From an uncultured Alphaproteobacteria bacterium (GTDB lineage: Bacteria > Pseudomonadota > Alphaproteobacteria > Rs-D84): a stretch of DNA of 64,000 nt. This document shows positions 29,764 to 48,072 of this stretch, piece after piece; positions within the stretch are counted from its first letter, which is position 1; each line of letters starts with the position of its first letter. The stretch covers positions 72,936 to 136,935 of the forward strand of contig CATOOF010000001.1 of the NCBI GenBank assembly GCA_951801825.1, written 5' to 3'. A model generated the notes under the pieces. That model was not told the origin of the DNA and did not search any database. It saw only the letters and a program-made list of their open reading frames with translations. The translations under genes and the position numbers were made by a program.

Positions 29764-30540
29764 TTATTGCATATAAAAACAGTCAGACGTAAACAGATAG
29801 CTTCCCGTTGAATCTTTTATGCCATACCCGGTCGGGAAATAACAATCGGTTATTAAAGATTTGCCTTTTTCTTTTGTCAGTCCATACATTCCCCCAGATG
29901 CAGGACAGCGCGCGCATCCGGACGTGGTTGTTCCGTAATACCCTATATCACAAACACATGACAGTTTATTATCAGCCGCAACCATTCCTGACTTACATGC
30001 ATTTACATAACATCCCGTCATATATCCAACCGCTTTGCCGTCCGTATTACAGCAAGGCGACATAGCGTATGCATTAACCGTCCCCGGCGCAGAAGTACAA
30101 GATTTCGTTCCATTTGTATCCGCCCACATTCCGCAATACAGCTGGCCGTTAATAGTGACCGACGGCCCCTTGCACATTGTACACAAGCTGCCGGTGGAAC
30201 ATGTTTTCGGACGCGATGTACTGCTGTCCCCACTGCCAGAGCCACCTGGTGCGCTGTCGGCAACACACGTATTCGTACGCAACATATAATATCCGTTTGC
30301 ATTTTTATATTCGGTTGTGGAACTTAAATGATAGCCGTCACTGCATATCTCGCATGTGCAAAGATATAGCGTACTGCTATCAGATGCATTTGCCGTATCG
30401 ATAGAATATTTAGTACACTGACTGGGGCTTTCAAACACTGTCTTACAAGTTGCGACGGTCGGTGCGGCAAATGCATTAATACACAGGAAACCCGCCCCCC
30501 ACATCATCAGCCCGATACACAAAATATGATTTCTTTTCAT
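29764..30540 (-). CDS. Secreted cysteine-rich protein, unknown
   Basis: The 258-residue protein has a signal peptide (NHILCIGLMMWGAGFLCINAFA) and more than 20 Cys in the mature part, many in CxxC and CC pairs, such as YLCTCEICSDGY, SLCTMC and SCVCDIGYYG. Its last 50 residues, GCARCPASGGMYG ... TDCYFPTGY ... DSTGSY ... CFYMQ, resemble the end of the frameshifted gene at 34144-34745. The pattern suggests a disulfide-rich surface or periplasmic protein. Function unknown. The structured RNA at 30561-30789 lies immediately upstream on the same strand and ends in a terminator 20 bp before this start codon. Confidence 0.75.
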   Translation of the reverse strand: MKRNHILCIGLMMWGAGFLCINAFAAPTVATCKTVFESPSQCTKYSIDTANASDSSTLYLCTCEICSDGYHLSSTTEYKNANGYYMLRTNTCVADSAPGGSGSGDSSTSRPKTCSTGSLCTMCKGPSVTINGQLYCGMWADTNGTKSCTSAPGTVNAYAMSPCCNTDGKAVGYMTGCYVNACKSGMVAADNKLSCVCDIGYYGTTTSGCARCPASGGMYGLTKEKGKSLITDCYFPTGYGIKDSTGSYLFTSDCFYMQ

Positions 30541-30560: not shown

Positions 30561-30789
30561 AAAAAGAAATACCGCCAAAGAAATGGCGGCCGGGGATTTG
30601 AAAAATCATAAGCAAAAATGACCCTGTGACCTTCGGGCGCATACGCGCCCTTATAATCACAGATCCCCAGCCGTGGGCCGGGAAAAACATGCAACGCAAA
30701 ATACGTCACATTTTTTGTCGGATTACGACGCATTGCGCCGTTTGCTTATGGGATTTTCAAGTCCCAGAACCAACATCCCTGTTGAATTC
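30561..30789 (-). ncRNA. Structured RNA A (paralogue of the RNA at 47743-47970)
   Basis: A predicted 229-nt transcript with its own promoter and terminator (CCGCCA / TGGCGG and a T-rich tail). The 3' core (30592-30668) has an outer helix GGGGAT / ATCCCC enclosing a hairpin CTGTGA / TCACAG; inside that are TTATAAGG (30649-30656), a GGGCGC / GCGCCC stem and GAAGG (30630-30634), then GGTCA and a TTGCTTATGATTT tail. Upstream lie a TGGG...CCCA hairpin and CGGCGCAA pairing with TTGCGTTG (30740-30733, 30699-30692). It may be an independent small RNA, or a leader whose terminator controls the cysteine-rich gene. I do not recognise the family. Confidence 0.65.
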
Positions 30790-47707: not shown

Positions 47708-47736
47708 TTGTATTTCGGCGCCGGGTGATGTATAAT
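47708..47736 (+). promoter_or_regulatory. Promoter of structured RNA B
   Basis: TTGTAT (47708-47713), 17 bases, TATAAT (47731-47736). No gene follows for more than 1 kb on this strand. Confidence 0.7.
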
Positions 47737-47742
47737 AATAAA

Positions 47743-47970
47743 CGAATCCGGATGGGAATTTGGGTTCGGGGCCGTTACAAGCCCAGCTGACACGGTGCGA
47801 ATTGCATCGATAACAATATATTAGTGCGGCGCATATTTGCACCGTTAACCCTTGACATCATGGTCGGGGTGCTGTTGGTTATAAGGTTCGCCGAAGGCCA
47901 ACAGGGTCACTTGTTAGCTGATTTGTAAACACCCCGACCACTTATATTCTTAAGTGGTCTTTTCCTTTTT
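47743..47970 (+). ncRNA. Structured RNA B (paralogue of the RNA at 30561-30789)
   Basis: A predicted 228-nt transcript in a 467-bp gap without genes. The 3' core (47862-47939) is an outer 10-bp helix GGTCGGGGTG / CACCCCGACC that encloses hairpin CTGTTGG / CCAACAG with TTATAAGG (47879-47886) and GAAGG (47893-47897) inside, then GGTCA and TTGTTAGCTGATTTG. The 5' part has TGGG...CCCA and CGGTGC...AA pairing with TTGCACCG (47837-47844). A strong terminator (GACCACTTA / TAAGTGGTC, then T-rich) follows directly; four of its bases also belong to the outer helix, so the two exclude each other. Confidence 0.7.
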
Positions 47971-47973
47971 ATA

Positions 47974-48031
47974 GTGGGCGGCCGTAACATATGATATTAT
48001 GTGCGCCTTCTCATCAATGAACGCCGCCCAC
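47974..48031 (+). other. Long-range inverted repeat next to RNA B
   Basis: GTGGGCGGC (47974-47982) pairs with GCCGCCCAC (48023-48031) around 40 bases that include a small ACATA / TATGT hairpin. It starts just after RNA B's terminator. It could be a second small RNA or a remnant; I see no promoter for it. Confidence 0.4.
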
Positions 48032-48072
48032 CAGGCCTTCTAACAATCACGAATATAAATTGCGTGAAAAAA

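Follow-up and report, generated by a model that had tools for sequence, protein, structure and literature searches.

A chromosomal, amplified family of leader RNAs in gut Alphaproteobacteria with the layout of the phage C4 antisense system

The window, a stretch of 64,000 nt from the genome of an uncultured alphaproteobacterium, carries two non-coding regions on opposite strands, each consisting of a promoter, about 228 nt, and a terminator (Table 1), and both lie where a first-pass annotation of this DNA had placed them. Copy 1 sits between an acyltransferase gene and an inositol monophosphatase gene and has no gene of its own, which is likewise true of its ortholog in the related genome G049. 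The neighboring acyltransferase gave no match when used as a protein query against viral contigs. Directly after copy 1 there is a GC-rich inverted repeat (GGGCGGCCG...CGCCGCCC, 47974-48033), and an analogous repeat is found at the G049 ortholog (L481, about 616-662). The protein encoded behind copy 2 has no Pfam match. BLAST does not link the two copies (copy 1 recovers only itself from its own genome), so the original pairing of these regions by eye was a good catch. They had been read as stand-alone 228-nt RNAs, which does not hold for copy 2 or for nearly all of the other copies, as these are leaders positioned before a gene.

Table 1. Parts of the two copies found in the window
Feature	Position	Strand	Remark
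Copy 1, -10 box TATAAT	47731..47736	+	Spacing conserved in almost every genus copy
Copy 1, complete C4-type RNA element	47743..47970	+	Orphan (no gene follows); RNA start ~47743
Copy 1, 5' hairpin Pa	47744..47767	+	Loop GGGA
Copy 1, hairpin with target word a1	47768..47784	+	a1 at 47774-47780
Copy 1, target word b1	47785..47792	+	AGCTGACA
Copy 1, Y-shaped antisense domain (P1, P2, P3)	47862..47939	+	Homologous to sRNA-Xcc1
Copy 1, antisense loop word b'	47912..47919	+	TGTTAGCT
Copy 1, antisense joiner word a'	47923..47930	+	TTGTAAAC
Copy 1, intrinsic terminator T2	47936..47963	+	4-nt overlap with P1 3' strand; end near 47963-47970
Copy 2, complete C4-type leader of gene 29764-30540	30561..30789	-	RNA start ~30789; terminator reaches 30561
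Copy 2, 5' hairpin Pa	30767..30789	-	
Copy 2, hairpin with target word a1	30750..30765	-	a1 at 30754-30760, TTGAAAA
Copy 2, target word b1	30741..30749	-	ATAAGCAAA
Copy 2, internal terminator-like hairpin T1	30683..30711	-	Followed by GTTTTT
Copy 2, Y-shaped antisense domain (P1, P2, P3)	30588..30672	-	
Copy 2, antisense loop word b'	30608..30616	-	TTTGCTTAT
Copy 2, antisense joiner word a'	30598..30605	-	TTTTTCAA
Copy 2, intrinsic terminator T2	30561..30591	-	
Gene led by copy 2	29764..30540	-	258-aa cysteine-rich protein, N-terminal signal-like stretch

The first-pass annotation proposed one paralog and advised a search for homologs in related genomes. The paralog does exist, but it is one of many, as this genome carries at least 11 copies. 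With copy 2 as a BLAST query, matches were obtained in 48 of 147 related genomes, often several in each. The 3' domain was also modeled by covariance from about fifty collected copies (R1), with a broader model built from 106 (R2). In the covariance search, the 3' domain of copy 1 scored 46.9 bits (E 5.5e-8) and that of copy 2 scored 75.9 bits (E 4.8e-15), each copy being part of the training set, and the G049 ortholog of copy 1 scored 56.3 bits. The family is carried by 76 of the 87 genomes of the genus (58 of the 63 good ones), with copy numbers ranging from 1 to at least 37 in G073 and at least 49 in G014. It is also present in another family of the order, and matches were found in 40 of 385 genomes sampled evenly across the class and in 17 of 398 sampled across the phylum, four of which lie outside the class. 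Matching named records are mostly metagenome-assembled genomes (MAGs) of gut or rumen Alphaproteobacteria. Two MAGs labeled as Rickettsiales (L078, Gx481_bin12; L079, Roe453_bin100) hold copies at 71-73 bits. Divergent pairs of copies ~1 kb apart recur in related genomes (G049:C2:161718-162803, G039:C4:79642-80728, and G051:C42:3226-4313). A DNA pattern scan of genome and viral contigs proved too loose and was discarded, with real copies in about ten of the genome records tested.

The 3' domain folds as a Y composed of an outer stem (P1), hairpin P2, hairpin P3, and then a U-rich joiner, and P2 contains a conserved internal loop (UAUANAACA / NAAAG). The view that this is a functional structured RNA family is strongly supported by covariation. 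Among the 106 aligned copies, 22 of the 24 modeled pairs vary on both sides, with 444 double-change cells versus 107 ± 13 in shuffled alignments and a covariation score of 0.511 versus 0.205 ± 0.007, while 93.5% of cells are paired versus 76.7 ± 0.5%, a percentage that leans towards the structure because the alignment was fitted to it. Sliding the pairing partner by a single column abolishes the covariation signal, and the fold z-scores of the two window copies are -4.1 and -6.6. The compensatory stems recognized at the outset are correctly paired, but their roles differ from those listed: GGTCGGGG/CCCCGACC forms the outer stem P1, CTGTTGG/CCAACAG forms P2, and GGTCA...TGATTT, taken for a motif and a tail, forms P3. 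The TGGG...CCCA hairpin is present and holds the target word a1, and the CGGYGC...AA stem is present too, but inside the variable terminator region. Measured from P1 to P1, the core spans 78 nt in copy 1 and 85 nt in copy 2, rather than the 77 and 78 nt given originally.

The 5' domain comprises hairpin Pa with its GGGA loop, a second hairpin, and then a word of 8-10 nt complementary to the loop of P3. In order, the complete element comprises a promoter, an upstream hairpin region that contributes the a1 and b1 words, in many copies a terminator, the Y-shaped RNA, a terminator or a stretch that masks the ribosome-binding site (RBS), and the gene. An intrinsic terminator directly follows P1 in 97% of the genus copies versus 11% of shuffled sequences, and a second one (T1) lies between the 5' and 3' domains in 60% versus 12%. 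Outside the genus, T1 was detected in 15-21% of copies, a low figure that is partly accounted for by the short stretch searched. In a few other copies the terminator is absent, and the sequence after P1 can, as read by eye, mask the Shine-Dalgarno (SD) sequence. Almost all copies are leaders, the led gene starting a median of 48 nt past P1. In the genus, 58 of 75 led genes encode a signal-like stretch versus 20 of 52 window genes under the same crude rule, and cysteine content is 5.2% versus 1.6% for the window genes. The few Pfam names among led genes are outer-membrane barrels, a YadA anchor, glycosyltransferases, LicD, an HTH regulator, and an N6 methylase.

The most telling feature, and one absent from the first-pass annotation, is the word complementary to the P3 loop, which is 8-9 nt long in the window copies (AGCTGACA/TGTTAGCT in copy 1, with one G-U pair, and ATAAGCAAA/TTTGCTTAT in copy 2). 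When 195 upstream nt were searched freely, almost all copies had their best complement to the P3 loop immediately behind the a1 hairpin. Similarly, the second hairpin has a loop that complements the joiner of the same copy (UUGAAAA/UUUUCAA, UUAGAAAA/UUUUCUAA, UCAGAAA/UUUCUGA, and UUCGAAAA/UUUUCGAA). Own a1-a' pairs scored 15.96 versus 12.52 ± 0.28 for permuted pairs, with a maximum of 14.0 in 20,000 permutations, and the antisense domain against the upstream element gave -37.5 versus -26.5 ± 0.4 kcal/mol; because orthologs and paralogs are both among the copies, these permutations do not count independent events. The G049 ortholog is 87% identical to copy 1, yet a1, b1, b', and a' have all changed (b1 is AGCTGACA in copy 1 and GACAAGTA in G049; b' is TGTTAGCT and TACTTGTC, respectively), and self-complementarity is kept in each. 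Specificity was rewritten on both sides of a retained scaffold, as expected of an antisense-target pair, although an intramolecular pseudoknot would show the same. A comparison of paralogs for avoidance of cross-talk gave no clear effect beyond general diversity, as strong cross-matches amounted to 0.8% within genomes and 1.7% between genomes.

A further complementarity connects the RNA to the RBS of the led gene. Within the genus, pairing of each RNA with its own RBS averaged -11.19 kcal/mol versus -9.92 ± 0.24 kcal/mol for swapped partners, with 0 of 20,000 permutations being as good, and own RBS pairing was also stronger than pairing with six coding windows. An all-clade version of this permutation is confounded by GC content, which varies from clade to clade, and the one within the genus replaced it. 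In a mixed set, the excess over dinucleotide-shuffled RBS windows was modest (p = 0.02). The genus match falls mostly on the joiner and the 3' strand of P1, as with ATGATTTTCTGAAATCCC against AGGGATTTGAAATCATG at locus L347 (G049:C1:13960). This effect is an average: copy 2 lies outside the 40 best-ranked of 64 and its own match is weak, and copy 1 lacks both a gene and a downstream RBS target. Complementarity to the RBS is accordingly a statistical property of the collected sequences taken across copies.

The family had been called unrecognised, and a comparison with Rfam was advised. In the window, no Rfam model reached its threshold, and permissive E-values gave chance-like matches except for a weak one to sRNA-Xcc1 (RF02221, threshold 53 bits), at 28.8 bits for copy 2 and with no match reported for copy 1. 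The original description holds to this extent, but the 3' half of the element joins RF02221 through intermediates, and the whole has the layout of the C4 antisense RNA system of phage P1. Several distant family matches are themselves RF02221 members above threshold (59-70 bits), and annotated relatives from plasmids and from the phages Rac-SA53, Aaphi23, and Acinetobacter 4316 score 67-86 bits to RF02221. Hits of the alphaproteobacterial R2 model coincide in position with these RF02221 members, at E-values of 2e-8 to 5e-3 in 42 kb. Judged by sequence, the 3' domain shares common descent with sRNA-Xcc1. In 6 of 6 annotated phage and plasmid relatives, the next gene is an antirepressor or belongs to that group (ant, KilA-N, BRO, Rha), and in 6 of 6 a single word of 6-7 nt that complements the RNA is present in two places, once upstream and once overlapping or adjoining the antirepressor SD: TACAAG(AGG), CAAACAG(GAG), ACGAAG(GAG), TGTCAGG(AGG), CTAGAAG(GA), and TTCTGAG(GA).

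A Rac-like copy is present in 160 of 5,426 complete E. coli genomes. A single E. coli genome, NZ_CM183920, has 13 places that resemble the Rac-SA53 leader. Two distant loci of the family lead SymE-type genes, and sRNA-Xcc1 sits in integron cassettes, in Xanthomonas upstream of symE (PMC12444791). For sRNA-Xcc1 itself, RACE-mapped ends give a length of 88 nt (PMC2996969), and its EHEC homolog is abundant (40,293 reads) and scarcely covered by ribosomes (PMC5331693). Xylella fastidiosa Temecula1 carries five tandem sRNA-Xcc1 copies at 1,313,466-1,315,082 with a period of ~380 bases, and their published account predicts mRNA and host targets, a self-target reading not being raised in the passages considered (PMC12189769). 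At locus L468, a c4-2-like match at 2883-2951 on the minus strand, with 34.8 bits against a threshold of 41, is located 1.3 kb upstream of an sRNA-Xcc1-type RNA and its P22_AR_N-type antirepressor gene.

The GenBank record of phage P1 gives the order a1, b1, the 77-nt C4 RNA, and then a2 and b2 at the icd RBS, where a1 is TTGACAG, b1 is GTTAGTGC, the second-hairpin loop of C4 is CACTAAC, and the joiner is CTGTCAA. C4 and the elements described here fold alike into a Y whose second hairpin presents b' in its loop, while a' lies in the joiner that leads back to the outer stem. The elements described here also carry, farther upstream on the transcript that contains the Y, words a1 and b1 that are complementary to a' and b'. 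The Rfam model c4-a1b1 (RF03163) also spans a hairpin and then a hairpin with a1 in its loop, as in these elements, and an IsrK-like match is found in the P1 leader. The C4 models RF01695 and RF03163 gave no match in the window at the curated threshold (cmscan), and the family model and the C4 models gave no match in either direction.

Taken together, we consider this family to be a chromosomal, amplified branch of C4-type self-antisense leaders that silence mostly secreted, cysteine-rich proteins, a reading to which we give a probability of about 0.78. Its structure, coevolving complementarity, terminators, leader position, sRNA-Xcc1 homology, and identity of layout with P1 C4 can all be read from the DNA, while small-RNA release, action in trans, and the sign of control are drawn by analogy from C4 and P4 CI. 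The promoter would drive a leader containing a decoy or target (a1, b1), the Y with b' in the P3 loop and a' in the joiner between P3 and P1, a terminator, and the RBS of the gene. As for C4 and P4 CI, the Y would be set free as a small RNA by termination and probably by processing at the base of P1. It could then pair with a1 and b1 of new transcripts, which would favor early termination, and with the RBS, which would block translation, such that each gene may be held off by its own leader. We favor negative autoregulation because C4 is described as trans-acting (PMC8546580) and because P4 CI brings about termination by pairing with seqA on its upstream side and seqC on its downstream side (PMC4825925). 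The sign is nevertheless uncertain, as IsrK shows that such RNAs can also activate.

Within the same transcript, these parts could instead be taken up by identical pairing or by a helix between the P1 5' strand and an upstream CCCGAC strand. The chief alternative is an attenuator acting purely in cis, in which a1/b1 and a'/b' form an intramolecular pseudoknot and competition between P1 and the CCCGAC strand switches the terminator. This would explain the complementarity of the words equally well, and it fits both the near-universal genus terminator after P1 and the RBS-masking sequence that replaces it in some copies. We nonetheless regard it as improbable, since a pure pseudoknot has no need of RBS complementarity, the RNA that accumulates from relatives is 88 nt long and lacks the 5' part (PMC2996969), and antisense action is reported for C4 and CI, which share the layout (PMC8546580, PMC4825925). 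A metabolite-binding riboswitch class governing a regulon of secreted proteins would account for the leader position, the terminator or RBS platform, the many copies per genome, and the conserved internal loop, but it is very unlikely given that the led genes share no metabolic theme and range too widely (surface proteins, glycosyltransferases, antirepressors, SymE toxin, HTH regulators, and DNA methylases). Moreover, the best-conserved relations are copy-specific complementary words, which point to antisense specificity rather than a ligand pocket, and the a1b1-C4-a2b2 layout in the P1 annotation displaced this reading. Least credible of all is a mobile cassette or recombination site that folds by chance and spreads with accessory genes, as the integron location of sRNA-Xcc1 (PMC12444791), the accessory nature of the led genes, and the scattered copies might suggest, because promoter, terminator, and RNA pairing are all conserved, orthologous copies keep their chromosomal place in related species, and relatives are transcribed (PMC2996969, PMC5331693).

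The self-antisense reading would also supply a likely function for sRNA-Xcc1, an Rfam family of E. coli prophages, Xanthomonas, Xylella, and plasmids with a previously unknown target, which is probably its own leader together with the RBS of the adjacent gene. It would further mean that a control device of phage lysogeny is used far beyond phages, reaching at least 49 copies with coevolving specificity words in one small genome, and gut bacteria appear to have copied a phage-style switch dozens of times before secreted-protein genes. More speculatively, a phage immunity RNA may have been domesticated by gut Alphaproteobacteria with 1-Mb genomes and multiplied into tens of self-antisense switches that do not cross-react with one another. 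Each would serve a single surface or secreted protein, and dozens of independent RNA circuits, quick to change their specificity, would then govern how the surface repertoire is expressed. The copy-specific words also constitute a natural set of candidate orthogonal RNA repressors.

Among known systems, P4 CI (seqA-CI-seqC) and Gifsy-1 IsrK (RF01394) similarly embed in a leader an RNA that pairs upstream and downstream of itself, with an early terminator behind the upstream element (PMC4825925). Their sequences and hosts are different, however, P4 immunity is described at the level of transcription termination, and the short RNA of IsrK is reported to activate rather than repress. sRNA-Xcc1, described as an integron-encoded trans-acting sRNA of Xanthomonas, has a homologous 3' domain (P1, P2 with an AUACAA/GAA-type internal loop, and P3), and its relatives precede symE or antirepressor genes. 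In contrast, the window copies fall below its threshold, and Rfam models the 3' domain only, leaving the upstream a1b1 element and the RBS target outside that model. The closest counterpart in layout is C4 of phages P1 and P7 (RF01695), which has the same hairpin, a1 hairpin, b1, and Y with b' and then a'; its RBS target words have a counterpart here as an average across the genus and in the six phage and plasmid relatives, with a weak match at copy 2. The gut lineage departs from C4 in having a terminator behind the Y, mostly a-type RBS targets, secreted proteins instead of icd-ant as the products controlled, and up to at least 49 copies per genome as compared with one per phage. The family is thus not an unknown kind of RNA; what is new is a chromosomal, amplified variant of C4-type self-antisense leaders.
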